From: Pseudaminobacter soli (ex Zhang et al. 2022)
GTDB taxonomy: Bacteria > Pseudomonadota > Alphaproteobacteria > Rhizobiales > Rhizobiaceae
Reading direction: 5' to 3'
Assembly (NCBI RefSeq): GCF_014595955.1
Contig: NZ_JABVCF010000004.1
Span: 124,001 to 188,000 of the forward strand
Length of the DNA stretch: 64,000 nt
The notes beneath the pieces were generated by a model that saw nothing but the letters and a program-made list of their open reading frames with translations, searched no databases and was not told the origin of the DNA. Of the stretch, positions 5,928 through 24,150 are shown in pieces. A program made the translations under genes and the position numbers. Positions within the stretch are counted from its first letter, which is position 1; every line of letters starts with the position of its first letter.

Positions 5928-5957
5928 AAGAAAAAGCCCGGCTGGAGCCGGGCTTTC
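5928..5957 (-). terminator. intrinsic terminator (of tmRNA; works in both directions)
   Basis: Perfect GCCCGGCT-CCAGC-type hairpin. On the minus strand it is followed by CTTTTTC, which would end the tmRNA transcript; on the plus strand it is followed by TTTC. Confidence 0.85.
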
Positions 5958-6291
5958 TTCCCCTGTTCTGTTTACAGGCCGGGGATGCCCAGTGGGTTAC
6001 GCCGCGAGGCGGTTGGCCACAGGGAAATTGTCGTTTGCGACAGTTTCTAGGTTCGGACGATAACGGTGTACCTCACCGGGTCGCGTGTCCCCTTGCTCAC
6101 AGCAGTCGATCCTATTTCGCCCCCATCATAACCACACTGAGCGCTGCCGTCTTGTGGAAGGCGCGGCCGTTGCCAGTGACGCCCACAGGCGTGATATCTA
6201 ACCCCAAACGCGGGCCAGTGTGGTTATGGTGGAGGCGGCGGGTTCCGCCCCCGCGTCCTGCATGCAATCCAGTTTCCCGGATTACGACCAT
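5958..6291 (-). ncRNA. ssrA: tmRNA, circularly permuted two-piece (alphaproteobacterial type)
   Basis: Gene order on the minus strand is acceptor piece, spacer, coding piece. The acceptor piece ends GGACGCGGG-loop-CCCGC then CGCCTCC-A-CCA (3' end at 6227). The coding piece starts GGGGGCG at 6124, followed by a conserved AAATAGGATCGAC-like stretch. GGGGGCG pairs with CGCCTCC to form the acceptor stem. The spacer continues the pairing (TAACCACACTG with CAGTGTGGTTA), giving one long precursor hairpin of about 22 bp, as expected for permuted pre-tmRNA. The tag frame at 6038-5997 encodes ANDNFPVANRLAA then TAA. GC-rich pairings after the tag are consistent with a pseudoknot. Odd: the 7-base T-loop is GGCGGAA instead of TTC-type. 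Outer ends are estimated from the promoter and terminator. Confidence 0.88.
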
Positions 6292-6297
6292 GCGACG

Positions 6298-6327
6298 TAC
6301 ATACTCCGAAGACCGAGGTGCTGTCAA
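6298..6327 (-). promoter_or_regulatory. promoter of tmRNA
   Basis: Minus-strand TTGACA (6322-6327) and TATGTA 18 bases downstream, immediately upstream of the tmRNA acceptor piece. Confidence 0.6.
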
Positions 6328-7399: not shown

Positions 7400-7428
7400 T
7401 TGACACAATCGGCAAGGAAATCTATACG
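7400..7428 (+). promoter_or_regulatory. promoter of rtcB
   Basis: TTGACA at 7400, a 17-base spacer and TATACG at 7423, about 60 bases before the rtcB start. Confidence 0.75.
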
Positions 7429-7489
7429 GACTGCGATCGCGACAATCAATAGACTCTGTCGCGTTTTAACAAGGGATAAGTGGGGCAAC

Positions 7490-8719
7490 ATGTCCGATTT
7501 CGAGTTTATCGCCCAAGAGGGCAAGATGAGGTCCCATATCAAGGCGTGGAACAGGGGCGTCGAGTTCGACGAGGGCACCTATGCCCAACTTAGAAACATC
7601 GCCAGCCTGCCATTCATCCACAAGCATGTGGCCGCTATGCCAGATGCACATGTCGGCATCGGAGCGACGGTCGGTTCGGTCATCGCCACCAAGGGCGCAG
7701 TGATCCCGGCAGCGGTCGGAGTCGACCTCGGCTGCGGAATGATGGCGTGGCGCATCTCCCTGAAGGAGAGCGATCTGCCCGACTCGCTTGGCCACATCCG
7801 CGCCGAGATGGAGCGCGCGACGCCGCACGGTCGCACCAACAACGGTGAGAAGGGTGATCGCGGCGCGTGGGATAACGCTCCGACCTCTGCACTCAACCGC
7901 TGGAATGGTCTCTTCGATCGTTACGAACAGATCATCGCCAAGCACCCGAAGGCCAAGAGCTACAACGGCCTCAACCATCTCGGCACGCTCGGCACCGGCA
8001 ACCACTTCATCGAGCTTTGCGGTGACGAGAATCAGGACCTCTGGGTCATGCTGCATTCCGGCTCGCGTGGCATCGGCAACAAGATCGGCTCCTACTTCAT
8101 TGAGCAGGCGAAGAAGGAGATGGAGCGCTACCACGTCACCGAGTACCTGCCGAATGCGGACTGCGCCTATCTGGTCGAACACACCGAGCTTTTCCAAGAC
8201 TATGTCGAGGCGGTTAGCTGGGCTCAGGACTTCGCGTGGGAGAACCGCAAGCAGATGATGCACCAGACCATTATGGCCCTGCGGAAGGTGCTGCCGCCGT
8301 TCGCTGTAACCCAAGAGGCGATCAACTGCCATCACAACTACATCTCTCGCGAGCATCATTTCGGCGAGAACGTGATCGTCACGCGCAAGGGCGCTGTCCG
8401 GGCGCGCGAAGGTGATCTCGGGATCATCCCCGGCTCCATGGCAACCGGCTCCTACATCGTGCGCGGCAAGGGGAATCACGATTCCTTCTGCTCGTGCTCG
8501 CATGGTGCCGGCCGGCGCATGAGCCGTGGTCAGGCCTTCAAGGCGATCAGCCTCGAAGACCACATCAAGGCGACCGAGGGGGTTGAGTGCAGAAAGGATG
8601 CCGACGTGATCGACGAGAGCCCGGCAGCCTACAAGGACCTCGGCGCGGTGCTCGCCGCCCAGTCCGATCTCGTCGAGGTCGTGCACCGGCTGCGGACGCT
8701 CGTGAACGTCAAGGGTTGA
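7490..8719 (+). CDS. rtcB: RtcB-family RNA-splicing ligase
   Basis: 409 aa. Motifs of RtcB in order: AMPDAHVGIGATVGSV, VGVDLGCGM (metal-binding Asp and Cys), GTGNHFIE, LHSGSRGIGN, NCHHNY, IPGSMATGSYIV and CSHGAGRRMSR (guanylated His). RtcB joins RNA 2',3'-cyclic phosphate ends to 5'-OH ends using GTP and Mn. In a phage with a large tRNA array it most likely heals tRNAs cut by host anticodon nucleases. The start ATG was chosen because MSDFEF matches the family start and follows GGGG. The stop TGA lies inside the dispersed element GGTTGAGTGCAG. Confidence 0.95.
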   Translation: MSDFEFIAQEGKMRSHIKAWNRGVEFDEGTYAQLRNIASLPFIHKHVAAMPDAHVGIGATVGSVIATKGAVIPAAVGVDLGCGMMAWRISLKESDLPDSLGHIRAEMERATPHGRTNNGEKGDRGAWDNAPTSALNRWNGLFDRYEQIIAKHPKAKSYNGLNHLGTLGTGNHFIELCGDENQDLWVMLHSGSRGIGNKIGSYFIEQAKKEMERYHVTEYLPNADCAYLVEHTELFQDYVEAVSWAQDFAWENRKQMMHQTIMALRKVLPPFAVTQEAINCHHNYISREHHFGENVIVTRKGAVRAREGDLGIIPGSMATGSYIVRGKGNHDSFCSCSHGAGRRMSRGQAFKAISLEDHIKATEGVECRKDADVIDESPAAYKDLGAVLAAQSDLVEVVHRLRTLVNVKG

Positions 8720-12717: not shown

Positions 12718-12909
12718 TTAATGCTGGACGCCCTGAACCTGTTTTCCGCAGCCGGGGCAGACGATATACCAGACGGTGTCTCTACCGCCACCGTAGTCGG
12801 TGTAGCTGAGGGTCTGGACTTCCGACCGGGTGTAACGGAGCCGGGAGGCGCACGAGCGGCAGGTGCATTCGAACACCTGCGACTCGTCCCGACCGACAAT
12901 CTGAACCAT
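12718..12909 (-). CDS. zinc-ribbon protein, 63 aa
   Basis: Two Cys pairs, CTCRSC and CPGC, separated by about 30 residues, form a likely zinc ribbon. The ATG overlaps the NadV stop (TGATG), so it is translated with NadV. Role unknown. Confidence 0.75.
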   Translation of the reverse strand: MVQIVGRDESQVFECTCRSCASRLRYTRSEVQTLSYTDYGGGRDTVWYIVCPGCGKQVQGVQH

Positions 12910-14327
12910 CAAAGCCCCCTGTACTGTGCCCGCTCTCGAACCTCGGCGAAGTTCCAGTGCTTGATCATCGGCACGGTGCTACGATCATCCATCCGGTAGA
13001 CCGTCTGGAGGAGATCGCCGGGGACGGTGTATGGTCCTTCCGTGGGGATGGTTACGATGCCTTCGGTGCCGGGCATCCGGATGACATGCTGCACGCCGGC
13101 CTTTGACGCCTTCGACGGGTCGGTCTTCGGCTTCTTCTGGACGCTGTACCACGAGCCATCCGTGCGACCGATCGCCGAGGCCTTCATGGCGAAGCGCAGC
13201 GTGTCGCGGTTGACGTGCTGAAGCAGGCCGGCACCCATGCCGAAGGCGACGTTGTCGAGCGACCAGCCGTTTCCGATCATGGCGTCGACGATCTCGGTCA
13301 GGCTCTCGCGATCGATGCCGTCGCCCTGAATGAGGCGGACCTTCGGGTGCAGGACCTTGTAGCCCTTCGAGTTGGTGGTGAAGCCCCATTCGTCGGCAAG
13401 CATCTCCAGCGACGACAAGACCAGATCAAGCGGATCGCCGCTGTCCGGGCGGATCACCAACGTCCCCTCGCGCGCATTCACGAGAGCACTCAGGTCACGA
13501 CTCCAAATCTTCTGGAGTGCGTTCCAGTAGTCGTAGCTGTCGGAGACGACGGCGACGAGTCCACGCGGGAACTTCTCCAGCATGTTGCGATAGGCGTCGT
13601 TCTCGCGATCCGCACCCCACGACGTGATCGTGCTGTGCTCGGCGGCCGGGATCGAGAAGCCAGCCATGCCAGCATGGTAGTAGCGCTGGGCGAAGTACGC
13701 ACCCATCATGGTGTCAGTGCCCTTGAAGTTCACCAGATGCGCCGCGCCGCCGATGCCGGCCTGCTCATTTGCACCCGTACCACGCGCGCCGAAATCATGG
13801 AGCTTGAACGGGGCCTGCCCGGCAGGATCATCGGACGACCGCATCAGCGCGTCGACGATCACCTTCTTGATCTCGCGCGAGTTGGTGGCCACGGTCGACG
13901 GATACCAGACCGCGCGCAGCAGCGCCGTCTCGACGTAGCTGGTCAGCCACGGCAGGCGCGGATCGGTGTTGACAACCTGCACCATCGGAGTCCCGGTTGG
14001 CACCACCGTGCCCTCGGAAAGCGCCTTGATCTCTAGTGGTAGATATCCGTCGTATTCGTGAGCGATGATCTCCCAGCCGGTGCGATTGAACGGTACGCCG
14101 TGCGCCTCGCAGAAGGCCTCAGCCTCATCGATCACATTGGCGGTGACCTGCGGACCCCACAGCAGATATTCCTTGATGAACATCTGGAGGCCGAAGAAGA
14201 CGACCTCGTCGTAGCCCTCCACCGGCCGCGCCTCGATGTAAGAGTTCACGAAGGCCGTCTCAGGCGGGTACTGGAGGAAGTGCGAAGTCTTGTAGCTGTC
14301 GGTATTCAGAATCGGATTGATCTTCAT
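12909..14327 (-). CDS. nadV: nicotinamide phosphoribosyltransferase
   Basis: 472 aa, full length for the Nampt/NadV family. Family motifs include NTDSYKTSHFLQYP at the N-terminus, HDFGARGTGANEQAG, AAEHSTITSWG, VSDSYDYWNA, VIRPDSGDP, LIQGDGID and AFGMGAGLLQ. The enzyme makes NMN from nicotinamide and PRPP. Two bases separate it from the NadM gene upstream, so the pair forms the two-step NAD+ reconstitution route described in phages (Nampt plus NMN adenylyltransferase), which overcomes NAD+-depleting defences such as Thoeris, DSR and SEFIR-type systems. Confidence 0.95.
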   Translation of the reverse strand: MKINPILNTDSYKTSHFLQYPPETAFVNSYIEARPVEGYDEVVFFGLQMFIKEYLLWGPQVTANVIDEAEAFCEAHGVPFNRTGWEIIAHEYDGYLPLEIKALSEGTVVPTGTPMVQVVNTDPRLPWLTSYVETALLRAVWYPSTVATNSREIKKVIVDALMRSSDDPAGQAPFKLHDFGARGTGANEQAGIGGAAHLVNFKGTDTMMGAYFAQRYYHAGMAGFSIPAAEHSTITSWGADRENDAYRNMLEKFPRGLVAVVSDSYDYWNALQKIWSRDLSALVNAREGTLVIRPDSGDPLDLVLSSLEMLADEWGFTTNSKGYKVLHPKVRLIQGDGIDRESLTEIVDAMIGNGWSLDNVAFGMGAGLLQHVNRDTLRFAMKASAIGRTDGSWYSVQKKPKTDPSKASKAGVQHVIRMPGTEGIVTIPTEGPYTVPGDLLQTVYRMDDRSTVPMIKHWNFAEVRERAQYRGL

Positions 14328-14329
14328 GA

Positions 14330-15343
14330 TTACAGTCCCAACATGTCCTGAATGATGCTGAAGTGATCTTCGAAGAACTCACCGCGCTCCAGTGAGTCGA
14401 CCGGGTGCCAGTTGGCACTCTCGGCGTCGTCCGCGCCGTTCACCCGCCACAACGGCTTGGCGTCCGGCAGACGGAACAGGAAGGCGTGCGTTACCGTCCG
14501 ACCGCGAGTTGACCGATAGGGATTGTCGAAGACCTTGCTCTCGGTGATGTACGTGTCTAGCCGGCCGGGAGGGATGCGTCCGCGCCCGTCCGCGATCTCC
14601 GTCTCCTCGCGCAGTTCACGCACGGCCGCTGTACGGATGCGCTCGTACTGGTCGATGAAGCCGCCCGGCAGTGCGAGCAGACCCTTGCCGGGATAGTCTC
14701 CGCGCCGGATCAGGAGGATGTGGCCGGACTGGACGACGACGGCGTCGACCGTGATGAAGGTCGGCGGGAAGGGTGCCGCCTCCCACGAGCGCCGGTAGCG
14801 CGAGATCGACTCGTGCTCGTAGTGGAGATTCCAATAGAAGTCGGAACTTACCCAGTCGTTCAGATATTGCCCGACTTCAGCAGGCATGGCCGTCGCGTCG
14901 ATCTTCTTGAGGAAGGAGAAATAGGCGTTACGAATCGTGGTCGCGTCGAGCGTTCTGCGCGTCGACTGGATGTCGAGCGAGCCCCAGTCCGGGAAGAGCT
15001 TCAGATAGAAACTCGACTGATCCTTCGAGTAGCCGACCAGAACGATGTCGTCGCCATAGGCGTTTTCGTTCACGCTGTTGCGGACCTCAGCGATCCAGCG
15101 CTCATCGCTGGGATAGTCGCAGATCGGCAGGAACTCGACCCGGCCGATCTCCTCGTCGGACAGGGTGCGGCTGATCATCTGCACCCGTTCATGGAACAGC
15201 CACGGGTTGCGCGTCGACCGCGCCGCGCCGGCCGAGCCGACGAGGATCAGAAGTTTGTCGAGTTGGGAAAGAGATTCGCGGACGATCTGGAGATGGCCGC
15301 AGTGAAAGGGCTGGAAACGCCCTATAAAGACGCCAGTGCGCAT
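14330..15343 (-). CDS. nadM: bifunctional NMN adenylyltransferase / Nudix hydrolase
   Basis: 337 aa. The N-terminal half is a nucleotidyltransferase: GVFIGRFQPFHCGHL (HxGH-type motif) and SRTL near residue 60. The C-terminal half is a Nudix domain with GGFIDQYERIRTAAVRELRE then ETEI. The first domain joins NMN and ATP to give NAD+; the Nudix part typically cleaves ADP-ribose, the product of NAD+-consuming effectors. First gene of the pair with nadV. The Nudix box spacing (GGFIDQYERIRTAAVRELREE) is intact. Confidence 0.95.
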   Translation of the reverse strand: MRTGVFIGRFQPFHCGHLQIVRESLSQLDKLLILVGSAGAARSTRNPWLFHERVQMISRTLSDEEIGRVEFLPICDYPSDERWIAEVRNSVNENAYGDDIVLVGYSKDQSSFYLKLFPDWGSLDIQSTRRTLDATTIRNAYFSFLKKIDATAMPAEVGQYLNDWVSSDFYWNLHYEHESISRYRRSWEAAPFPPTFITVDAVVVQSGHILLIRRGDYPGKGLLALPGGFIDQYERIRTAAVRELREETEIADGRGRIPPGRLDTYITESKVFDNPYRSTRGRTVTHAFLFRLPDAKPLWRVNGADDAESANWHPVDSLERGEFFEDHFSIIQDMLGL

Positions 15344-16081: not shown

Positions 16082-16156
16082 GACGTGGTGGCGGAGTGGC
16101 TTACGCGCCGGATTGCAACCCCGGTCACGCCGGTTCAATTCCGGCTCACGTCTCCA
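16082..16156 (+). tRNA. tRNA-Cys(GCA)
   Basis: Plus strand, unlike the main array. Acceptor GACGTGG/TCACGTC, anticodon loop TTGCAAC, T-arm GCCGG-TTCAATT-CCGGC, discriminator T as usual for Cys, and encoded CCA. It lies directly upstream of glutaredoxin. Confidence 0.9.
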
Positions 16157-16170
16157 ACTCCCCTGAGCAA

Positions 16171-16395
16171 ATGCGGCATTTCAAGATCATCACTCAAGAC
16201 GACTGCAAATACTGTGACCGCGCGAAGGCGCTGATTCGGGAGATGGGTGATACCTTCTCCGAGATCAATCTTTCGACATTCACTGAGGAGGCGCGGGGCG
16301 CGTTCAAGAAACGCTACGGGACCGTTCCGCAGGTCTTCCTCGAAACGGTGCGCATTGGCGGCTCCGACGATCTTGCGGCATGGTACGCTACTTAG
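16171..16395 (+). CDS. glutaredoxin
   Basis: 74 aa. CKYC active site at residues 12-15, the cis-proline segment GTVPQVF, and GGSDDL near the end, the standard glutaredoxin order. Likely electron donor for ribonucleotide reductase or a general thiol reductant. It starts 15 bases after the encoded CCA of tRNA-Cys. Confidence 0.9.
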   Translation: MRHFKIITQDDCKYCDRAKALIREMGDTFSEINLSTFTEEARGAFKKRYGTVPQVFLETVRIGGSDDLAAWYAT

Positions 16396-16855
16396 CCGAC
16401 TCCTTGACGTGGTAGGCGTCGCCTTCCTTGTCCTTGACCAGTATTCCCCTCTTGGCCATCTCGGACAGAGCGGCCCATACCGTCTGCTTGCGGATACCAT
16501 CACCGAGCGCTGCGATGATCTCGGCGCTCGTCATCGGACGTTCCTGACCAATTAATATGGTTGTGATTTGCTGCTTTATCGGCGGTTTTTTCTCGATAAC
16601 GGCCGACATGAAATCCTTTGCGGCGCGCTTCGTAGATGGTGGGTTTACCGGGCCATTCGATTTTCGAGTCTTGGGAGCGGCGTGCGATTCCGTTTGTCGT
16701 TGCTGGTCGGCTTTCTTGAAGGAGTGGTAGGCCCCGGCCTCGATCGGCTCTCGGAGAGATTCGATCGTGTTTCTGACATCCTCCAATTTGTTTATTCTGA
16801 TTTTTAATGCTTCGATCTCGCGGTCGATCTGGGCGCACATCGCATCGATGTCCAT
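16388..16855 (-). CDS. coiled-coil protein with C-terminal winged-helix-like domain
   Basis: 155 aa. Residues 1-40 form a coiled coil (IDREIEALKIRINKLEDVRN). A basic linker follows. The C-terminal 60 residues (PMTSAEIIAALGDGIRKQTVWAALSEMAKRGIL) read like a winged helix-turn-helix. A DNA-binding regulator is inferred. Its end overlaps the glutaredoxin stop on the opposite strand. Confidence 0.7.
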   Translation of the reverse strand: MDIDAMCAQIDREIEALKIRINKLEDVRNTIESLREPIEAGAYHSFKKADQQRQTESHAAPKTRKSNGPVNPPSTKRAAKDFMSAVIEKKPPIKQQITTILIGQERPMTSAEIIAALGDGIRKQTVWAALSEMAKRGILVKDKEGDAYHVKESAK

Positions 16856-17098
16856 TAACGACTCCCTGTCCCCTTGGTTTGTTGTTGCTGCGGTTCTCCG
16901 CAGACGATTACCTCACCCAAGGTCAGACCTTATCTGAAATATGGCATCATGGGTATAACTCGTGCGTTAAGGAGGCTGGAAATTAACGGACGAAATCATA
17001 AGTCATTATGTCGCATAATTCGTCGGCTTTTAAGCCGGGTGGGTGCACCATCTAGGGTGCTTTCTGAAGGCGGGCAAGCGACTCATACGTGTACGCAT
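16856..17098. other. gene-free stretch upstream of the winged-helix gene
   Basis: About 240 bases between two minus-strand genes. A plus-strand open frame exists, but it has no ribosome site and a Cys-run start, so it is not believed. The stretch holds the leader of the 16388-16855 gene. Confidence 0.5.
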
Positions 17099-17131
17099 GA
17101 AAAAGCCCCGACCGCTATCGGCCGGGGCTCT
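17099..17131 (-). terminator. intrinsic terminator
   Basis: GCCCCGGCCGATAGCGGTCGGGGC-like hairpin (given here by position) followed on the minus strand by TTTTTC, just after the 105-aa gene. Confidence 0.85.
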
Positions 17132-17138
17132 GTACTCA

Positions 17139-17456
17139 TCACATTTTGTCGAAATCGACAGCGTCATTGACCGGGATTAGAAGCTCTTCGAGATCGAGCA
17201 TCACGTCCTCGTACTTCTTGATGAAGGCCTTGGTCACCTGCACGTCCGGGAGCGCGACGCTGTTGGGCTGGGCGTAGAGGGTGCCGAGCCCATCGACGTA
17301 AGCATCCTTGTTGACCTGCCTGACGCGGAGGGTCGTGTCACCCTTCGGGCGCTCATGCTTGAACCAGTTCCAGAATGCCTTGTCGACATCCTCGGCCTTG
17401 CCCCACGAATTTCCTCCGACCACGATAAAGTGGTTGAGCGGCTGTTGCTCACTCAT
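17139..17456 (-). CDS. hypothetical protein, 105 aa
   Basis: Starts MSEQQPLNHFIVVGGN with leader GGAGTGTCAAC. A soluble alpha/beta-looking protein with no recognised family. Monocistronic, with its own leader and terminator. Confidence 0.75.
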   Translation of the reverse strand: MSEQQPLNHFIVVGGNSWGKAEDVDKAFWNWFKHERPKGDTTLRVRQVNKDAYVDGLGTLYAQPNSVALPDVQVTKAFIKKYEDVMLDLEELLIPVNDAVDFDKM

Positions 17457-17697
17457 GTTGACACTCCTATAAGGTTTTCAAAGAACATTCCGCCTCATTG
17501 GCAGCATCTATATCATAGCATATCTGGTTGATATTGCAACAACTTTGTTCTTTGTAAGAATACTTGCGAGACAAGACTAGGTTGAGTGCAGACTAACTTT
17601 GAATACTACTGCAAACACGAAAAAGGCCCGGTGGGAGACGGGCCTTGATGGTTAGGGGTTGAGTGCAGAGACTAACATCGCAGGAATGATGACGATC
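17457..17697. other. intergenic stretch with two dispersed elements and a terminator
   Basis: Gene-free. It has GGTTGAGTGCAGA at about 17580 and 17657, and a GGCCCGGTGGGAGACGGGCC hairpin at about 17624-17645, which would terminate the tRNA array on the minus strand. Confidence 0.6.
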
Positions 17698-17790
17698 TGG
17701 AGGAGAGCGGCTGGTCTTGATCCGCAGACCTCTCCCGAGGTCCCAACCGTTTTCGAGACGGTGCCGGCGCGCCTGTCCGGTTCACTCTCC
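17698..17790 (-). tRNA. tRNA-Ser(CGA)
   Basis: Acceptor GGAGAGT/GCTCTCC, anticodon arm ACCGT-CTCGAAA-ACGGT, long variable arm, encoded CCA. Odd: the T-loop is ATCAAGA (no T54), the T-stem hardly pairs, and the discriminator is T. Confidence 0.8.
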
Positions 17791-17795
17791 ATAAC

Positions 17796-17880
17796 TGGTC
17801 CGAGGGGAGAGAATTTGCACTCCCACAGTCTAAGACGGCCGCTTTACAGGCGGTTAGGCTCACTCGTGCCCAGCCCTCGG
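17796..17880 (-). tRNA. tRNA-Tyr(GTA)
   Basis: Acceptor CCGAGGG/CCCTCGG, anticodon loop CTGTAAA, long variable arm, A73, CCA. Odd: the D-loop lacks GG and the T-loop begins TGC (G at position 55) and seems to have eight bases. Confidence 0.8.
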
Positions 17881-17926
17881 ATGCGCGATCGCGTATAAAG
17901 CGAGTTTATCCGGAATCGCGTATAAA

Positions 17927-18013
17927 TGGCGGAAGGCGGTGGCCCTGATCCACTAACCCGTGCGGGTCTCATCCGTTTAGCAAACGGAGCCGGCCCGAGC
18001 CGGTTCACCTTCC
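17927..18013 (-). tRNA. tRNA-Ser(GCT)
   Basis: Acceptor GGAAGGT/GCCTTCC, anticodon arm TCCGT-TTGCTAA-ACGGA, long variable arm, G73, CCA. T-loop ATCAGGG, without T54 and with G in place of A58. Confidence 0.85.
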
Positions 18014-18145
18014 AGAAATGAAATGGAGGAGACGGAGAGCAGGCCAGTATCGCTCGCGCTCGATTACGGGCGCGCCGGCCTGTCTCCTAGCCCTCTTACT
18101 CGCGCCATCCTATCGAGCCAACAGGACCGCTTCGGCAGGGCATCT

Positions 18146-18231
18146 TGGCGGAGAGCGGAGAACTCGAATCCCACACCTTGCGGTGCGCTTCGCCTTCCAA
18201 GCGGGCCGGGAACCTATCCCGTTCACTCTCC
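18146..18231 (-). tRNA. tRNA-Ser(GGA)
   Basis: Acceptor GGAGAGT/GCTCTCC, anticodon loop TTGGAAG with a weak stem (two mismatches), long variable arm, T-loop TTCGAGT (normal), G73, CCA. Confidence 0.85.
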
Positions 18232-18235
18232 ATAC

Positions 18236-18310
18236 TGGTCCCAGCGGCAGGATTCGAACCTGCGACCTCTCCCTTATGAGGGGAAAGCACTACCGCCGTG
18301 CTCCACTGGG
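18236..18310 (-). tRNA. tRNA-Met(CAT) or tRNA-Ile2
   Basis: Acceptor CCCAGTG/CGCTGGG, anticodon loop CTCATAA, T-arm GCAGG-TTCGAAT-CCTGC, A73, CCA. It lacks the GGG/CCC pairs of initiators. A CAT anticodon could also be lysidine-modified for Ile. Confidence 0.85.
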
Positions 18311-18787
18311 TTAATCGCGTCGGACCACCTGAATGGGGCCGTCCGACAGAATGTCGTGCTTGATGCAGACCTCGACGGCGCGCTCGGCCGTCGCGCCCAT
18401 CTCCAGAGCACCCACGGCGATCATGTCGCCGGAGCCGAAGACGTGCCATTCGCTCTCGACCTCGTAAGGTGGATCGTCCCCCTCGAAGCGGATGCAGACG
18501 CCGTCCGGCTTGATCACGAAGCCGGTGCAGTTGTCGTCCTTCCCAGTCGGCTCGATCCGAGGACTGCTGTACTCCAGATTCTGGAGGAACTTGGGGAAGT
18601 TGTCCGAGCGGCACCAGCGGATGAACTTGGCGACGTAGGGCGCTTCGCCGGTCCCACCGACGAGGTAGGCTTCACCATCGACATCGACGCGAGCGATCTT
18701 CTCGGCGTGGCCGAGCACGTTCCAGTTGCGTCGGATCAACTGAGAATCCGACGCAAGGACACCGTCACGATAGACGAGGACAGTCAT
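18311..18787 (-). CDS. Ntn-hydrolase, HslV/proteasome-beta-like
   Basis: 158 aa. Begins MTVLVYRDGVLASDSQ, the family start in which removal of Met exposes a Thr nucleophile. FGSGDMIAVGALEMGATAERAVEV near the C-terminus is the conserved GSG...A..A...GA...AV helix. No ATPase partner (HslU) is next to it. It lies inside the tRNA array between tRNA-Met and tRNA-Gln. A peptidase or amidase function is inferred from the fold. Confidence 0.75.
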   Translation of the reverse strand: MTVLVYRDGVLASDSQLIRRNWNVLGHAEKIARVDVDGEAYLVGGTGEAPYVAKFIRWCRSDNFPKFLQNLEYSSPRIEPTGKDDNCTGFVIKPDGVCIRFEGDDPPYEVESEWHVFGSGDMIAVGALEMGATAERAVEVCIKHDILSDGPIQVVRRD

Positions 18788-19170
18788 CAGTAGCGCGCCG
18801 CGCCGAGCGAACGGGAAGGCGCAGCGCCCAGACCGGTCTCGGTGGACTTCTTGCCCTTCTTCTTGTTGTCGTCGAAGAACTTGTCGAGCGACTGGACCTG
18901 CACCGCCTTGACGATCAGGCGAACGATCGCGACCGGGTAGGTATTGGCCGAGGCCGAAACATCTCCGAAAGTGGCGATCGACGACTCGGTGTCGCCATTG
19001 CCGATCTTCCCGCCGACATCCCCCTTTCCGAGGATCGAATTGACGGCCGCAGCCGCCTTGGTCACGTCGGTGAGGTCGGTGCCGAGGAGATTGTTCGCTG
19101 CTGCGAGCGCCGCGTCCTCGTCGTTGAGCTTGCTGATTTCGACCAGCTTCTCGAAGTCGTTTCTGTCCAT
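18787..19170 (-). CDS. hypothetical protein, 127 aa
   Basis: Ala- and Asp-rich N-terminal helices and a Lys-rich stretch DDNKKKGKKS near residue 100. Its stop overlaps the start of the Ntn hydrolase, so the two are coupled. The upstream leader has GGGAGTTCCGGGC. No family was recognised. Confidence 0.75.
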   Translation of the reverse strand: MDRNDFEKLVEISKLNDEDAALAAANNLLGTDLTDVTKAAAAVNSILGKGDVGGKIGNGDTESSIATFGDVSASANTYPVAIVRLIVKAVQVQSLDKFFDDNKKKGKKSTETGLGAAPSRSLGAARY

Positions 19171-19242
19171 GCCCGGAACTCCCTTGTGGTTAGGCTTGCG
19201 GGATTCCGTTTAGGGGTTCTTTACGGCAGTGTCAAGAAAAAC

Positions 19243-19316
19243 TGGATGCCCTGCCACGACTCGAACGTGGACTCATCGCTTCAAAGGCGCGCGTCCTACC
19301 TTTAGACGACAGGGCA
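19243..19316 (-). tRNA. tRNA-Gln(TTG)
   Basis: Acceptor TGCCCTG/CAGGGCA, anticodon loop CTTTGAA, T-arm CCACG-TTCGAGT-CGTGG, CCA. Standard elbow. Confidence 0.85.
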
Positions 19317-19326
19317 GGAGTGAGGG

Positions 19327-19399
19327 TGGCTCGGCAGGTACGGGTCGAACGTACATCGGCTGATTCAGAGTCAGCGTGCTTACCATTAGCGACTGCCGA
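19327..19399 (-). tRNA. tRNA-Gln(CTG)
   Basis: Acceptor TCGGCAG/CTGCCGA, anticodon arm GCTGA-CTCTGAA-TCAGC, T-loop TTCGACC, G73, CCA. Confidence 0.92.
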
Positions 19400-19405
19400 A
19401 TAAAC

Positions 19406-19482
19406 TGGTGCCAAGGGGAAGTTTCGAGCTTCCGACCTCCGGGGTTTCAATCCGGCGCTCTAACCATCTGAGCTACCAAGGC
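19406..19482 (-). tRNA. tRNA-Phe(GAA)
   Basis: Anticodon arm CCGGA-TTGAAAC-CCCGG, A73, CCA. Odd: the acceptor strands GCCTTGG and CCTTGGC give two T-T mismatches at pairs 4 and 5, and the T-loop is CTCGAAA. Confidence 0.8.
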
Positions 19483-19490
19483 ATAAAAAT

Positions 19491-19576
19491 TGGCTCGCGA
19501 GGGAGGGATCGAACCTCCGCCCCCTTCGGGGTCCACCGGTTAACAGCCGGGAACATTACCACTCTGCCACTCGCAA
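19491..19576 (-). tRNA. tRNA with Asn anticodon (GTT) and long variable arm
   Basis: Acceptor TTGCGAG/CTCGCGA, anticodon arm CCGGC-TGTTAA-type with GTT, G73, T-loop TTCGATC, CCA. A long hairpin variable arm (GACCCC-GAA-GGGGGC) is not expected for Asn. Confidence 0.75.
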
Positions 19577-19585
19577 TCATAACAC

Positions 19586-19673
19586 TGGAGAACCGGGTGG
19601 GGATCGAACCCACGGTGGGCTTTCGCCATCGGATTAAAAGTCCGCGCCCTTCGACCAACTTGGATACCGGTTC
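19586..19673 (-). tRNA. tRNA with Lys anticodon (TTT) and long variable arm
   Basis: Acceptor GAACCGG/CCGGTTC, anticodon loop CTTTTAA, T-loop TTCGATC, CCA. Class II variable arm (TGGCGAAAGCCCA) and discriminator T, both atypical for Lys. Confidence 0.75.
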
Positions 19674-19679
19674 ACGATC

Positions 19680-19754
19680 TGGAGCCCTGCTCGGGGACCG
19701 CACCCGCTTCTACCGCTTACAAGGCGGCTGCTTCACTCTCAAAGCTTTCAGGGC
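19680..19754 (-). tRNA. tRNA-Thr(TGT)
   Basis: Acceptor GCCCTGA/GCAGGGC, anticodon arm GCCGC-CTTGTAA-GCGGT, CCA. The D-loop TGAGAGTG lacks GG and the T-loop TGCGGTC has G at position 55. Confidence 0.8.
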
Positions 19755-19760
19755 ATTGTC

Positions 19761-19835
19761 TGGAGCCTCGGTCGGGAACTGCACCCGCTTCTGACCGGTA
19801 CGAACGGCCTGCTTCACTCGCAAAGCTTTCGAGGC
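19761..19835 (-). tRNA. tRNA-Thr(CGT)
   Basis: Acceptor GCCTCGA/CCGAGGC, anticodon arm GGCCG-TTCGTAC-CGGTC, CCA. D-loop TGCGAGTG and T-loop TGCAGTT show the same altered elbow as tRNA-Thr(TGT), so the two are probably duplicates. Confidence 0.8.
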
Positions 19836-19846
19836 ATAATAAATAA

Positions 19847-19934
19847 TGGAGTACCCGGCTGGATTCGAACCAGCGGTGTGCTTTCGCAGGCGGATTAAGA
19901 GTCCGACGCCATCGACCAACTCGGCCACGGGTAC
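19847..19934 (-). tRNA. tRNA with Lys anticodon (CTT) and long variable arm
   Basis: Acceptor GTACCCG/CGGGTAC, anticodon loop CTCTTAA, class II D-arm and variable arm, T-loop TTCGAAT, discriminator T, CCA. Closely related to the TTT tRNA at 19586. Confidence 0.78.
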
Positions 19935-19940
19935 ATTAGC

Positions 19941-20014
19941 TGGAGCCGACACGTGGAATTGAACCACGGCTCCGTCCTTACCACGGACGGCGTCTACCAC
20001 TGACATATATCGGC
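19941..20014 (-). tRNA. tRNA-Thr(GGT)
   Basis: Acceptor GCCGATA/TGTCGGC, anticodon arm CGTCC-GTGGTAA-GGACG, D-loop with GTGG, T-loop TTCAATT, CCA. Standard elbow, unlike the other two Thr tRNAs. Confidence 0.9.
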
Positions 20015-20099
20015 AAAATTTAACTGTCTCGATTAATCGAGCCGCAACTTGTCCTTGCTACAACCGCTGTGCTGATCACAACACCACGAGGCAACAGAC

Positions 20100-20282
20100 A
20101 TGATGAAACTGCTGAAGCGCTTCCAGAGCGATGAGTCTGGAGCAACTGCAATCGAATACGGCCTGATCGCTGCTTTGATCGCGCTGGCGATCGTCGTCGG
20201 CGCTGGCGCACTCGGCGAGAACCTGAACGCCAAGTTTCAGGCAATCAGTGACCAGTTGGCGGGTACGCCGGAGGGAGAATAG
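20100..20282 (+). CDS. Flp-family type IVb pilin
   Basis: 60 aa. ESG-ATAIEYGLIAALIALAI is the complete Flp prepilin signature: a short basic leader, a Gly before the cleavage site, Glu at +5, Tyr at +6 and a hydrophobic helix. The size equals that of host Flp pilins. It is on the plus strand inside a minus-strand tRNA array, with its own leader (CACGAGGCAAC) and a strong terminator. Host prepilin peptidase could process it and it could enter or block the host Flp pilus. Whether it helps adsorption, blocks superinfection or was simply captured from a host cannot be told. Confidence 0.9.
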   Translation: MMKLLKRFQSDESGATAIEYGLIAALIALAIVVGAGALGENLNAKFQAISDQLAGTPEGE

Positions 20283-20317
20283 AGTTCCTTGTCCGCGTTA
20301 CAGCAACGACAAGCAAC

Positions 20318-20350
20318 TGACCGCCCTCCGGGGCGGTTTTTTTTTTTTGG
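20318..20350 (+). terminator. intrinsic terminator after the pilin gene
   Basis: CCGCCC-TCC-GGGGCGG hairpin followed by a long T tract. Confidence 0.92.
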
Positions 20351-20425
20351 TGGAGACGGTGAGAATCGAACTCACAACAGCCTGCTTGCAAGGCGGGCTC
20401 GCTAACCCTTAGAACATGCGTCCCC
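20348..20425 (-). tRNA. tRNA-Ala(TGC)
   Basis: Acceptor GGGGACG/CGTCTCC, anticodon loop CTTGCAA, T-loop TTCGATT, A73, CCA. Confidence 0.88.
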
Positions 20426-20438
20426 AAACTCTGAAAAA

Positions 20439-20540
20439 TGATCCGGCAGGCGGGCGAGTGTCCCCGCGTCATCTCCCCGGCTAGACAGCACCGAGGTTTT
20501 GCAGCCACGCCTTGTCTAAGGGCGGGTCGCTATGTCCGGA
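20439..20540 (-). other. possible degenerate tRNA-Cys-like element
   Basis: Weak acceptor pairing (TCCGGAC with TGCCGGA), a four-pair D-like stem, a loop containing CTGCAAAA, a long variable segment, a GCGGG...CCCGC T-like stem without TTC, discriminator T and only CA at the end. It could be a decayed or highly divergent tRNA; it may also be only spacer. Confidence 0.25.
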
Positions 20541-20602
20541 AGGTCACGTTATTCCACGCCAGACCATCCGCTGCTCGTCGCGTTCTGAGCTACTGCCGAA
20601 AC

Positions 20603-20679
20603 TGGACCTTCCGGCTGGGATCGAACCAGCGCCCTCCAGCTTCGGAGGCCGGCGCTCTTGTCCGCTGAGCTACGGAAGG
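20603..20679 (-). tRNA. tRNA-Arg(CCG)
   Basis: Acceptor CCTTCCG/CGGAAGG, anticodon arm CCGGC-CTCCGAA-GCTGG, T-loop TTCGATC, discriminator T, CCA. Confidence 0.88.
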
Positions 20680-20682
20680 AAT

Positions 20683-20757
20683 TGGAGCGGGTAGCGAGGG
20701 TCGAACTCGCGCCTCTAGGCTGGCAACCTAGTGCTCTACCAACTGAGCTATACCTGC
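20683..20757 (-). tRNA. tRNA-Gly(GCC)
   Basis: Acceptor GCAGGTA/TACCCGC (one A-C mismatch), anticodon arm CTAGG-TTGCCAG-CCTAG, T-loop TTCGACC, T73, CCA. Confidence 0.9.
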
Positions 20758-20944
20758 AATTTCGCGGGGTGGGGCTCAGGTCATCACTCCTGTCCCCTGA
20801 GCGGGTGATGATCCGGTTTGGGGCCGGTCCCTCTCCCCCTGCTCGGAGAGCCCGAAGGCTCAATCCTTGGAAACTCTCGACAGGGGTCACCTGTCGCTAG
20901 GCAAGGCTCTGAAGGTTGACGAGACCTTCGCCCTTGCGTGCCTA
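20758..20944 (-). ncRNA. hairpin-rich spacer, candidate structured RNA
   Basis: No gene. Several clean hairpins: CTCAGG...CCTGAG, CGACAGG-tgacc-CCTGTCG, GAGCC-TTCG-GGCTC, and GAAGGT-CTCGTCA-ACCTTC nested within GCAAGG...CCTTGC. It is part of the same minus-strand transcript as the flanking tRNAs. Confidence 0.45.
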
Positions 20945-21022
20945 TGGCCTCCCCGGAGAGATTCGAACTCCCGACACGGGAGGTAGAAGCTCCCTGCTCT
21001 AGGTCCACTGAGCTACGGAGAG
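20945..21022 (-). tRNA. tRNA-Arg(TCT)
   Basis: Acceptor CTCTCCG/CGGGGAG, anticodon arm GGGAG-CTTCTAC-CTCCC, T-loop TTCGAAT, G73, CCA. Confidence 0.9.
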
Positions 21023-21469
21023 GAGATCGCTTTTGGAGGGAGGCCAGCAGGCCATCGTTAGATGGAGTGTCAACACAACGGAGTCGCAAGACTTGCCGAA
21101 GCTGCCGACCTCCCGCCAAAGGCGATCTAGGTGCCGAAAGCGTGAGACTACCGCTTTCGATGACGACCTTCCCGCATTATCCGACGCCTTGCGAGCGTGG
21201 TTCTCGGGATGTCCACGCCGAGCATATTGCTATGTCTCGACGTATTCGTCAATGCCGCCTTTTTTAGCGCGTGGCGTTTCGCGCGTCGCTGCGTGCTATT
21301 CGGCGTCTCGTCGACCGTGAGCCTTGCGGGCTCTTCGCGGCTGCTACACCGCTACGATCTCTTCCTCACCGACACCCTCCAGCTTGCGACCTTCAGGTGA
21401 CCCAGTTCCCCGCAGGGCTGGGCATTAGGCATCTTTCACACGCAACCGGGACAGGCTTTGCGTTTTGTT
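21023..21469 (-). other. gene-free, structured stretch in the tRNA array
   Basis: Begins with a long inverted repeat (AGATCGC-type arm near 21022-21045 pairing with 21110-21131). It holds an exact plus-strand copy of the early leader GTCAACACAACGGAG near 21067, and many GC-rich hairpins. No tRNA or convincing open frame was seen. Confidence 0.45.
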
Positions 21470-21542
21470 ATCGTGAGGCCGGATTTGAACCGGCGACCGA
21501 TGGCTTAGAGGGCCATTGCGCTACCAACTGCGCTACTCGCAA
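21470..21542 (-). tRNA. tRNA with TCT (Arg) anticodon and C33
   Basis: Anticodon arm ATGGC-CCTCTAA-GCCAT, T-arm GCCGG-TTCAAAT-CCGGC, D-loop with TTGG. Odd: position 33 is C instead of the universal T, the acceptor TTGCGAG/CTCACGA has one mismatch, and no CCA is encoded. Confidence 0.65.
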
Positions 21543-22075
21543 CCCACCGAGACGTGCTGCCCCAGTTGCTCCAAGCCCTTTTGGGACCCAGAATACAACA
21601 CGCCTGCTGCTACCTTTCGCGCTGCTAACGCTACTCGATCATGCTTCGAGATCACGGGTCATTTCAGCCCGAGACCTTGCCACATTGCCAGACGCCCTCG
21701 GCCGCTAAGCCTCGAACCTTCTGACTACCCTTCATCATCGGCCATCGATCAGTTTGCGTGCCGGGCGCGCTTTGCGAGCGCTTGAGGGCCACCATCGGCT
21801 ACCCTCTTATCCAACCTTGCGGGTCGGACCCTGCCTGATCTTCGGGCCTAGCCCACCTTCCGGTAAGCCGGGTGTCCCCGTGACTGGGCTTGCATGGCTG
21901 GACGCGGTTACCCGCGTGGAGGTTTATGGGAAACCCTCCTTTGGGCCGGTTGCCCGGCTTACCCTGACGACGCCATGCCGCCAAACTCTGCTCCGGTTCT
22001 CGTCGCCGATCGCCGTCGCCTTGTTGTCCTCTAACTACTTCACGACTGCGCCGCCCGTCAAGCATTAATTTGCAA
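21543..22075 (-). ncRNA. candidate large ornate structured RNA
   Basis: About 530 bases without a gene. On the minus strand: GGTAAGCCGGG pairs with CCCGGCTTACC about 95 bases away; GCCGG-GCAA-CCGGC and CGCGG-GTAA-CCGCG are GNRA tetraloop hairpins; GGAGG...CCTCC; TCCGACC-CGCAA-GGTTGGA. A possible promoter (TTGACG-N17-GTAGTT) lies at 22033-22061. Position and style resemble the large phage RNAs GOLLD and ROOL, which also sit in tRNA arrays. Homology is not shown. Confidence 0.5.
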
Positions 22076-22100
22076 TCGTGTTAAGATTTTTTCGACATAC

Positions 22101-22180
22101 TGGAGCGCACGGCAGGGGTCGAACCTGCATCTTCCTCCATTACCTTACTCTCGGTTCGTAGCCGAGGGGGTTACGTGCGC
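22101..22180 (-). tRNA. tRNA-Arg(ACG) lacking a D-arm
   Basis: Acceptor GCGCACG/CGTGCGC (perfect), anticodon arm CTCGG-CTACGAA-CCGAG (perfect), T-arm GCAGG-TTCGACC-CCTGC (perfect), CCA. Only seven bases (TAACCCC) join acceptor and anticodon stems, so there is no D-arm; the variable region is 21 bases. Confidence 0.75.
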
Positions 22181-22185
22181 ATAAA

Positions 22186-22261
22186 TGGCGAGCCATAAGG
22201 GAGTCGAACCCTCCTTCTCCGATCGACAGTCGGAGCCCTTCACCACGACGGGAAATGGCCC
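22186..22261 (-). tRNA. tRNA-Asp(GTC)
   Basis: Acceptor GGGCCAT/ATGGCTC, anticodon arm TCCGA-CTGTCGA-TCGGA, D-loop with GTGG, T-loop TTCGACT, G73, CCA. Confidence 0.9.
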
Positions 22262-22269
22262 ATTGAAAA

Positions 22270-22344
22270 TGGAACTGGGAGCCCGGCTCGAACGGGCGAT
22301 TCCGGGGACACAACCCGGCCGGTTACCTCTACCGTCATCCCAGC
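22270..22344 (-). tRNA. tRNA-His(GTG)
   Basis: Acceptor GCTGGGA/TCCCAGT, anticodon arm CCGGG-TTGTGTC-CCCGG, T-loop TTCGAGC, CCA. The encoded base before position 1 is T and discriminator is T, unusual for His (G-1, C73). Confidence 0.85.
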
Positions 22345-22352
22345 ATAGTGTT

Positions 22353-22424
22353 TGGAGCGGACTGCCGGGATCGAACCGGCCTTGGGAGATTGGAAGCCTC
22401 TTAACTCACCGAGAGCAAGCCCGC
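22353..22424 (-). tRNA. tRNA-Gly(TCC)
   Basis: Acceptor GCGGGCT/AGTCCGC, anticodon loop CTTCCAA, T-loop TTCGATC, T73, CCA. Confidence 0.88.
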
Positions 22425-22429
22425 ATGTC

Positions 22430-22511
22430 TGGTACGCCTAGCAGGACTTGAACCTGCACGCCGAAGCACGGGCATCTCAGTCCCGCGTGTCTACCTTTCC
22501 ACCATAGGCGC
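22430..22511 (-). tRNA. tRNA-Leu(GAG)
   Basis: Acceptor GCGCCTA/TAGGCGT, anticodon loop CTGAGAT, long variable arm TGCTTCGGCGT, T-loop TTCAAGT, A73, CCA. Confidence 0.9.
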
Positions 22512-22660
22512 ATGTTTGTTTGGCGGGGCCGAACACCTGTCGACCCGATCCGGACGCGATCCCGGACCCTGCACGATTACCCTCTCGCCGATCGCGCGGC
22601 CGTTCATGACCGGCCTTTGTTCTCGGGCGATTTTGATGAAGAGAGTCGCCGTCGCCAATC
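22512..22660 (-). other. gene-free spacer in the tRNA array
   Basis: GC-rich stretch with short hairpins (for example GGCCG...CGGCC). No complete tRNA could be folded by eye; a divergent tRNA is not excluded. Confidence 0.3.
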
Positions 22661-22743
22661 TGGTGTCCGAGGGGAGACTTGAACTCCCACGCCGAAGCTC
22701 TGCGGTCTGAGCGCAGTGCGTCTTCCGATTCCGCCACTCGGAC
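22661..22743 (-). tRNA. tRNA-Leu(CAG)
   Basis: Acceptor GTCCGAG/CTCGGAC, anticodon arm CTGCG-CTCAGAC-CGCAG, long variable arm, T-loop TTCAAGT, A73, CCA. Confidence 0.93.
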
Positions 22744-22748
22744 ATGTC

Positions 22749-22859
22749 TGGTGGAGTGTGACCGGATTTTTACCGGAGCCCATAGGGACAGGTGTACGGC
22801 CTGTTCGGGATAGGCAGTCCCGCTCGCAGACCTCTAGCGGTCCGCTTAATCACAACTCC
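22749..22859 (-). tRNA. unusual tRNA-like gene, Gly anticodon (GCC), oversized arms
   Basis: Ends GGAGT... and ...ACTCC-A-CCA pair as acceptor. The first arm has a seven-pair D-like stem GCGGACC/GGTCTGC with loop GCTAGA. The anticodon arm is CGGGA-CTGCCTA-TCCCG (GCC). The variable region has two hairpins (ACAGG...CCTGT and CCC-TAT-GGG). The T-like arm is CCGG-TAAAAAT-CCGG. The layout recalls SelC-like or allo-tRNAs. Function uncertain. Confidence 0.45.
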
Positions 22860-22864
22860 ATAGA

Positions 22865-22943
22865 TGGTGCCTCGCCCCGGATTCGAACCGGGAGGATGTC
22901 GCCGGGTTTGAGCCGACCGCGTCTTCCGTTCCGCCAGCAAGGC
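22865..22943 (-). tRNA. tRNA-Leu(CAA)
   Basis: Acceptor GCCTTGC/GCGAGGC, anticodon arm GTCGG-CTCAAAC-CCGGC, long variable arm, T-loop TTCGAAT, A73, CCA. Confidence 0.92.
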
Positions 22944-22947
22944 ATTG

Positions 22948-22996
22948 ATACGTTTAGAGGTATAGAGCGCGCGGCTCTATACGTCTAAAGGTATCA
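22948..22996. repeat. long inverted repeat (hairpin)
   Basis: Two 22-base arms (GATAC...GAGC and GCTC...GTATC) with two mismatches around a five-base centre, between tRNA-Leu and tRNA-Trp. It may guide precursor processing. Confidence 0.75.
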
Positions 22997-23001
22997 GATC
23001 G

Positions 23002-23076
23002 TGGCAAAGGCTGAGAGATTCGAACTCCCGCCGCAGGGTTTTGGAGACCCGCATGCTACCGCTACAACAAGCCGAT
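23002..23076 (-). tRNA. tRNA-Trp(CCA)
   Basis: Anticodon arm CGGGT-CTCCAAA-ACCCT, T-arm GGGAG-TTCGAAT-CTCTC, G73, CCA. The acceptor ATCGGCT/AGCCTTT has mismatches at pairs 2 and 3. Confidence 0.8.
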
Positions 23077-23084
23077 CCACGAGC

Positions 23085-23118
23085 CCCGGCCGGACGGATT
23101 CCCGGCCGGGGTTTCTGA
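23085..23118. terminator. intrinsic terminator-like hairpin
   Basis: CCCCGGCCGG...CCGGCCGGGG, followed on the plus strand by TTTCTG. Confidence 0.6.
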
Positions 23119-23171
23119 TGTCATCATTCCTACGATGTCAAAGAACGGGACCCTAACTAAGGTCCAAATGC

Positions 23172-23207
23172 AAGAAGGCCCCGGAGATTTCTCGCCGGGG
23201 CCTTCTG
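23172..23207 (-). terminator. intrinsic terminator
   Basis: AAGGCCCCGG...CCGGGGCCTT hairpin, with a CTTCTT tract on the minus strand; ends the candidate RNA upstream of it. Confidence 0.7.
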
Positions 23208-23485
23208 ATCGATCCGAGGATGGTACTGTTAGAATACAGTACCTCCGTCGCCAGAAGACCCCATGATACCGAACAGATTGGTATCAAGCAGACGCAAGGA
23301 GGCGCGGCGCGACTGCGCCGTCCCACTCGTCATTTGATGCCAATACTGCTGTTTCACAGCGGTCTTCCTTGTTCACGTCCCTCAGGAGAGCGGATATCCG
23401 CTGGTCGACTCCGAGGGCTCATTCCGAAATTCTGTTGCGGTCCCCATACGGTGAACCTGAGAGCGGCGTCAGCCAAGCTCAGCGC
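23208..23485 (-). ncRNA. candidate stand-alone structured RNA
   Basis: Gene-free stretch between a minus-strand promoter-like TTGACA (23511-23516) and the terminator at 23172-23207. Clean hairpins on the minus strand: GGTACTG...CAGTACC, GATACC...GGTATC, GCTGT-gaa-ACAGC, CCCTC-GGAG...CTCC-TGAGGG, CGGATATCCG. About 280 nt. No known class was recognised. Confidence 0.5.
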
Positions 23486-23690
23486 GAATGATGAACAATC
23501 CTGAGACGTTTGTCAAGCAAGAAAATCATCCGTCTCAAGAAAAAGTTTACATCGGAAAAGGTTGACGATCGAGTCACGAGGGCTAGATGTCGGGCTGTTA
23601 CGAAGTCGGAGCATGGTGCTCTGATCATTTTTGAGAGGGAGCAATCTCAAGAGTGAAAGTGGACTCTTCCCAGACTTGACCATGAGTCTA
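23486..23690. other. intergenic stretch with promoter-like sites
   Basis: Holds the minus-strand TTGACA at 23511-23516 and a plus-strand TTGACG at about 23563. No gene was seen. Confidence 0.4.
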
Positions 23691-23717
23691 GCCCGCTTCG
23701 GCGGGCTTCTTTTTTGG
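23691..23717. terminator. intrinsic terminator
   Basis: AGCCCGC-TTCG-GCGGGCT with a T run on the plus strand. Confidence 0.8.
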
Positions 23718-23718
23718 A

Positions 23719-23793: not shown

Positions 23794-23797
23794 AAAT

Positions 23798-23953: not shown

Positions 23954-23954
23954 T

Positions 23955-24030: not shown

Positions 24031-24034
24031 GAAC

Positions 24035-24108: not shown

Positions 24109-24150
24109 ACACCGGGCCGAGGCTTGCGCCCCGACCCGATGGGGCTTGTT

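Follow-up and report, generated by a model that had tools for sequence, protein, structure and literature searches.

A circularly permuted tmRNA gene of the alphaproteobacterial type was located on the minus strand at about 6291-5931 of the window (the whole 64,000-nt stretch analyzed, bases 124001-188000 of the 391-kb contig C34 in a 6.1-Mb genome), and the gene lies inside an integrated prophage. Our data indicated that it probably encodes a working alpha-type two-piece tmRNA (ssrA) that uses the SmpB, AlaRS, and proteases of the host. The kind is already known from published phage two-piece tmRNAs: the relevant passages of PMC9004378 report tmRNA in 402 of 18,146 phage genomes and classify 53 of 133 structures as two-piece, and those of PMC11915505 list 79 unique tmRNA sequences from phages and a total of 11,946 permuted sequences. 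The less expected point is a structural contrast between viral and bacterial two-piece tmRNAs, which is testable. The occurrence of a host ssrA and a phage ssrA in one genome also makes the two comparable within one cell.

Layout, helices, and tag of the prophage tmRNA

In the Rfam scan of the window, two covariance models matched the gene above their gathering cut-offs: RF04321 over the full model length at 6289-5997 (101.6 bits; gathering, 47; E value, 1.2e-18) and RF01849, the alpha model, at 6308-5997 (89.1 bits; gathering, 50). With both models above cut-off, we kept the RNA in the permuted alphaproteobacterial tmRNA family, as a P2b variant. The outer ends of RF01849 (positions 1-39 and 271-355) were unmatched, and the score was far lower than that of the bacterium's own ssrA (89 versus 303 bits). 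ARAGORN, which listed 26 tRNAs in the window, did not call the tmRNA gene. From 5′ to 3′, the order is an acceptor piece, a 102-nt spacer, and a coding piece; the initial annotation had described a complete two-piece tmRNA in this order and had named a tmRNA model as the check, and the two Rfam matches bear it out. The acceptor piece (6227..6291, with an approximate 5′ end) comprises the P2 3′ strand, the T-arm, the acceptor 3′ strand, and A73-CCA in the Rfam alignment. The spacer occupies 6125..6226, and both of its ends lengthen the acceptor helix according to pairing counts. The coding piece (5957..6124) begins with G1 at 6124, and its 3′ end was drawn to the terminator from the Rfam alignment and a comparison with Mesorhizobium phage Cp1R7A-A1 (MT188704). 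These and all tmRNA features below are on the minus strand.

In the acceptor stem, GGGGGCG (6124-6118) pairs with CGCCTCC (6237-6231) at 7/7 positions, and G3-U70, A73, and CCA are present; the 3′ strand with its ACCA, which includes U70, spans 6227..6237 (Rfam alignment and structure parse). The pairing had been claimed to continue into the spacer, as it does: beyond the stem, counted from A73 with CCA included, 13/14 positions have partners among the 14 bases preceding G1. Among spacers of at least 28 nt, to which these counts are confined, pairing of at least 11 of the 14 end positions was found in 8/8 distinct named-phage spacers (16% with partners swapped between phages), in 69/76 virome spacers among the matches listed (swapped, 21%), and in only 10/29 bacterial spacers (swapped, 3%). 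The 370-nt precursor folded at −168.9 kcal/mol (z = −4.0), and none of 100 shuffles was as low. Structures were compared in rows from 17 named-phage, 120 virome, and 138 bacterial loci, with 1, 8, and 12 unparsed and 1, 12, and 0 duplicates, respectively; neither MT836065 nor a further copy of the host locus was included. G3-U70 is kept in 15/15 named-phage and 126/126 bacterial rows, as well as in 100/100 virome rows among the matches listed.

Eight sequences were aligned, one from the resident bacterium and seven from phages, with CcrColossus dropped. Standard pairs filled 136/136 cells of the acceptor stem, T-arm, and P2a, and both partners had changed in 7/17 pairs (4/5 in P2a). None of 500 shuffles matched any of five measures, and slid structures were 31-49% paired. 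At the level of sequence, this indicates that the acceptor stem, the T-arm, and one inter-piece helix (P2a) are kept via compensatory changes. P2a joins the acceptor strand GGTCG (6285..6289) to its partner CGACC in the coding piece (6079..6083), and its strands across phages read GGUCG/CGACC, GAGCG/CGCUC, GCACG/CGUGC, and GAUCG/CGAUC. Four P2b pairs of RF04321 were non-standard in the Rfam alignments of both the prophage tmRNA and Cp1R7A-A1. At the site of the bacterial P2b strand, structure parsing and folding placed a 9-bp acceptor-piece hairpin with a GAAA loop (6264..6285), and in the predicted fold this local hairpin can take over the P2b strand of the prophage tmRNA; bacterial P2 was poorly predicted when the two pieces were cofolded, and cofold counts are indicative only. 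At the PK1 position, only a hairpin (CGGTG-AGGTA-CACCG, 6064..6078) is visible in the Rfam alignment and by folding. The T-arm (6238..6254; Rfam alignment and covariation) carries the loop GGCGGAA, which the initial annotation held to depart from all standard tmRNAs. This was mistaken, as the loop is one base off the alphaproteobacterial Rfam consensus GGCGGUA and is carried exactly by a bacterial tmRNA (L253).

The tag reading frame noted earlier was parsed at 5997..6038 (Rfam alignment and tag parse) as ANDNFPVANRLAA followed by TAA, an intact frame of 13 codons with the Ala resume codon GCA and the end RLAA. The suggested comparison with the host ssrA tag, ANDNYAEARLAA, revealed host-like ends, namely ANDN... 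and ...RLAA. SspB-type adaptors and ClpXP would recognize the ANDN stretch and the terminal LAA. An ANDN start was found in 83/83 bacterial and 4/5 named-phage tags and, among the matches listed, in 80/92 virome tags, counts in which ANDN starts are partly built in by a parser that seeks GCN-AAY and in which 49/137 bacterial loci were unparsed. All 83 bacterial and all 5 named-phage tags, and 88/92 virome tags among the matches listed, end in AA. A second parser, which often starts too early and was unused for tag-start counts, gave frames ending in AA in 14/15 named-phage rows; the one exception, CcrColossus, was a misparse, its tag ending ...LLAA when read by eye. For the tags of Erythrobacter phage L02 (L147) and CcrColossus (L005), the resume codon appears to be Val rather than Ala (GUC AAC GAC AAC), a reading made by eye and, for L02, also parsed so. 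On the 3′ side of the tag, a CCTNNNAACAGAA element (5966..5978), read from alignments, is also present in the host's own tmRNA and in Cp1R7A-A1.

The initial annotation had also assigned the gene its own promoter and terminator, and the terminator part stood. An intrinsic terminator, consisting of a hairpin and a downstream T run, lies at 5931..5956 (terminator scan and Cp1R7A-A1 comparison), and its stem is kept in Cp1R7A-A1; the scan found three terminator-like hairpins in the 1.1-kb region against 1.1 expected. The promoter is a candidate, for which the conserved −35 box is only suggestive: TTGACA (6322..6327) is identical in Cp1R7A-A1, and a weak −10 box, TATGTA (6298..6303), was read by eye at 18-nt spacing. 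The candidate in Cp1R7A-A1 reads TTGACA-17-TATTCT. A promoter scan of the 1.1-kb tmRNA region returned no promoter-like site, the prophage TTGACA-18-TATGTA included.

Prophage setting and the host's own genes

A lower-GC block extends over about 100-225 kb of C34, and an identical 46-bp repeat occurs at 98194 and 226957, the left copy forming the 3′ part of a tRNA-Arg gene. At this end of the prophage, a 437-aa tyrosine recombinase (integrase; PF00589; E value, 6.6e-27) starts about 80 bases after the tRNA-Arg gene, and the length between the repeats is 128.8 kb. A viral record of 128,860 bp in IMG/VR contains the tmRNA-adjacent 1249-aa protein at 100% identity, and both ends of the 23.7 kb fetched from this record were located in C34. 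The window also encodes a terminase large subunit (39605-42418, plus strand, 937 aa). The att repeat, the integrase, the viral record, and the terminase together place the tmRNA inside an integrated prophage, so that the earlier description of a phage-encoded, permuted tmRNA can be made more specific. The terminase may contain an intein, with an Intein_splicing match at residues 167-483 below the Pfam cut-off.

Contig C20 carries the host's own ssrA, which matches the full model at 303.2 bits and has a 28-nt spacer. One smpB was found in the genome, on contig C2, outside the prophage contig; the genome search found no smpB on C34. An RtcB RNA ligase (7400-8719, plus strand; PF01139; E value, 3.5e-122) is one gene pair away from the tmRNA. 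ARAGORN placed the 26 tRNA genes of the window at 16082-24470, 25 of which are minus-strand genes within 18236-24470. A full-length GOLLD RNA match (21139-21605, minus strand, 205 bits) lies in this tRNA cluster, about 15 kb from the tmRNA, and a tRNA-Arg(TCT) at 21469-21543 falls inside the GOLLD span. At 12909-15343 (minus strand), a nicotinamide phosphoribosyltransferase (NAMPT-like) lies beside a CTP-transferase/NUDIX protein, and the two are likely a phage NAD-salvage pair. The 1249-aa neighbor of the tmRNA was matched in 10/297 family-sample genomes, its own included, with the best other match aligning 435/1249 residues at 56%; in the collection of genome contigs, none of six stretches was confirmed. 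A 22-base acceptor pattern gave no matches in that collection, and a related acceptor pattern in viral contigs matched only this prophage.

Function, rival explanations, and origin

We infer the transcription, processing, charging, use, and benefit of the prophage tmRNA along the following lines. Transcription would start near 6291 and run to the terminator, whose end is at 5931; the spacer would be excised from this precursor by host tRNA-processing enzymes, and pairing in the acceptor stem and P2 would keep the acceptor and coding pieces together. The AlaRS of the host would charge the RNA via G3-U70, and host SmpB and EF-Tu would bring it to stalled ribosomes, where the nascent protein would gain a tag with a host-type ANDN start and LAA end and be passed on to host proteases. 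The benefit would probably be additional ribosome rescue at times of message cleavage or translational stress in the course of phage growth, although the host already has an ssrA with a full-model match, which counts against such a benefit. The initial annotation had suggested phage control of ribosome rescue or a phage-specific way of tagging proteins. A supply of rescue RNA is plausible; a private pathway was not supported, because the tag ends are host-like and the sole smpB found is on another contig, so that the RNA should feed the host pathway. The RtcB, the 26 tRNA genes, the NAMPT-like and CTP-transferase/NUDIX proteins, and GOLLD would fit a kit that sustains translation under attack. 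It is proposed in passages of PMC9004378 that phage tmRNA helps to keep the hijacked machinery running or marks host proteins for recycling; for Bradyrhizobium phages, a passage of PMC12656738 proposes a role in dealing with stalled ribosomes.

A phage RNA of this kind might instead compete for host SmpB and AlaRS and dampen host trans-translation rather than perform it. The prophage contig, on which no smpB was found, and the rebuilt P2b are compatible with such a decoy, as are passages of PMC4131195 and PMC11915505, in which the tag-less tmRNA of mycobacteriophage DS6A, or a similar molecule, is reported as a tmRNA inhibitor. We nevertheless consider it unlikely, as a decoy needs no tag, yet AA-ending frames occur in 14/15 named-phage rows and in 88/92 virome tags among the matches listed; the prophage copy differs from the DS6A type in having a tag. 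The prophage gene could also serve as a back-up that replaces the host ssrA when this is lost or interrupted by other elements integrating there. According to passages of PMC11915505 and PMC12656738, ssrA is a frequent integration site. The prophage itself is integrated at a tRNA-Arg gene rather than ssrA, and an integrase is annotated in the record of its relative Cp1R7A-A1. The bacterium's own ssrA, however, matches the full model at 303 bits, and Cp1R7A-A1 is postulated to be virulent in a passage of PMC9437464, a lifestyle to which a lysogen back-up would not apply; this explanation therefore appears highly improbable.

The lower model score, the unmatched model ends, and the redundancy with the host copy would be expected of a non-functional remnant captured from a host. 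We give this reading very little credence, because the helices show compensatory changes, the tag frame is kept, and the terminator and layout are kept in Cp1R7A-A1, whose tmRNA is 72% identical and forms a sister pair with the prophage tmRNA at 100/99 support in three trees. With the mature pieces joined, the nearest of 147 other rows to the prophage tmRNA was likewise Cp1R7A-A1 (80.3%), compared with 73.6% for the best bacterial rows and 68.9% for the resident bacterium's own copy; capture from the resident bacterium was rejected on these values. Placement of the pair among bacteria varied with sampling, in trees built on few columns and with bootstraps unsettled at 48, 88, and 126 bacterial rows. 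With 48 rows, all bacteria fell on one side of a branch (100/97); with 88 rows they no longer did (2 changes); and with 126 rows (8 changes), a long branch carrying the phage pair arose within a cluster of 64 bacterial rows (96/98). In a subset of 111 rows from which the longest branches had been removed, the pair was unplaced, and a grouping of 44 same-order bacterial rows without the phage pair was unrejected (p-AU, 0.457). Given these conflicts, the 48-row tree was not used as evidence for an all-viral lineage. A working tmRNA that feeds the host pathway remains our preferred explanation.

Viral and bacterial two-piece tmRNAs compared

The acceptor strand of bacterial alphaproteobacterial tmRNAs carries a CUAUGGCGAUAAA-type stretch that is part of the Rfam consensus. 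A pattern for this motif, written after the sequences were seen, matched 102/126 bacterial rows, 0/15 named-phage rows, and 0/100 virome rows, so 0/115 viral rows among the matches listed. The prophage and Cp1R7A-A1 have the 9-bp GAAA-loop hairpin in its place. A hairpin score of at least 6 in a 38-nt stretch was reached in 9/15 named-phage and 43/100 virome rows (52/115 viral rows in all, among the matches listed) and in 16/126 bacterial rows, against 7-9% of shuffles; the bacterial fraction also exceeds the 7% shuffle rate. Hairpin positions clustered in one 3-nt bin for 7/9 named phages, in a different bin for 26/43 virome rows among the matches listed, and in a third for 8/16 bacterial rows. 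The 52 viral hairpins, among the matches listed, represent 33 distinct stems, in which partner swapping left 2.9/6 pairs on average, a figure qualified by the selection of these stems for pairing. A spacer of at least 60 nt was found in 14/15 named-phage rows versus 14/126 bacterial rows, and in 67/100 virome rows among the matches listed; these fractions are not free of bias, as selection relied on an exact coding-piece motif for virome rows and on Rfam hits for bacterial ones, the latter taken irrespective of prophage location. The exact 20-base coding-piece motif occurs in at least 120 viral stretches.

The named phages below the hairpin score were L02, CcrColossus, CcrSC, CcrBL9, RB23, and Bajun, and Phosso, unparsed in this count, has a 7-pair hairpin visible by eye. 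MT836065, an UNVERIFIED faecal scaffold that was Rfam-matched, lacks the hairpin, and its spacer measures 14 nt; it was left out of the later phage sets as bacterial-looking, and its inclusion would give a hairpin count of 9/16. In the passages reached by open-access literature searches, no description of an acceptor-piece hairpin was found. It is possible, if rather doubtful, that viral alpha-type tmRNAs form a structural class of their own, with the motif lost, P2b often replaced by a hairpin, and a long spacer, and that in this phage the tmRNA may join a translation-repair kit (26 tRNA genes, RtcB, and NAD salvage) that keeps ribosomes working while host defences cut tRNAs or messages.

Permuted tmRNAs scored above the Rfam cut-off in 7/7 phage loci (Cp1R7A-A1, DSS3_MAL1, MD18, CcrColossus, L02, RcRudolph, and RcSimone-Hastad) and in 10/10 further ones (Phosso, DSS3P8, V10, RcXuper, RpAliso, MT836065, CcrSC, CcrBL9, RB23, and Bajun), all 17 preselected by BLAST match. 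In the stretches viewed, tmRNA was annotated only in DSS3_MAL1 and Bajun, and the MT836065 record is without any annotation. Rfam matches above cut-off that lacked a tmRNA feature in the viewed stretch came from the published alphaproteobacterial phage loci L003, L005, L147, L148, L149, L150, L184-L188, and L190-L192; our analysis thus points to unannotated tmRNA genes in several published alphaproteobacterial phages. The Caulobacter-phage BLAST matches H9-H14 (one inspected) are limited to the terminator, at query bases 443-474; the tmRNAs of CcrSC, CcrBL9, and RB23 were found via a separate query.

Methylophage Melnitz and other marine phages likewise carry two-piece tmRNAs, placed with alphaproteobacterial ones in a passage of PMC9004378; the same source describes the Melnitz tmRNA with a glutamine riboswitch, and the Rfam scan listed none in the prophage window at the gathering threshold. 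DSS3_MAL1, MD18, DSS3P8, V10, and RcXuper resemble the prophage in having a permuted tmRNA with an acceptor-piece hairpin, one pair of which is C-G in DSS3_MAL1 and RcXuper and U-A in DSS3P8 and V10. GOLLD RNA adjoins the tmRNA in four of these five at the gathering threshold, RcXuper being the exception, whereas the prophage GOLLD is distant, and the hairpin, tag, and acceptor sequences of the group are unlike those of the prophage. The closest likeness is to Cp1R7A-A1, which has a permuted tmRNA (72% identity over 361 nt) with no tmRNA feature annotated and the same order of RtcB, two genes, tmRNA, and a large protein on the other strand, the two genes being matched by similar size rather than sequence. 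The hairpin, the −35 box, and the terminator are common to both, but the Cp1R7A-A1 tag is ANDNHFEARALAA, its P2a and spacer sequences are unlike those of the prophage, and it matches the full alpha model (1-355). Alphaproteobacterial permuted tmRNAs, including the host ssrA, share with the prophage copy the gene order, the acceptor stem with G3-U70, CCA, the T-arm, P2a, an ANDN...AA tag, the post-tag element, and pairing spacer ends. Compared with the host copy, the prophage tmRNA has a spacer of 102 rather than 28 nt, lacks the bacterial acceptor motif, and carries the 9-bp hairpin at the P2b strand.
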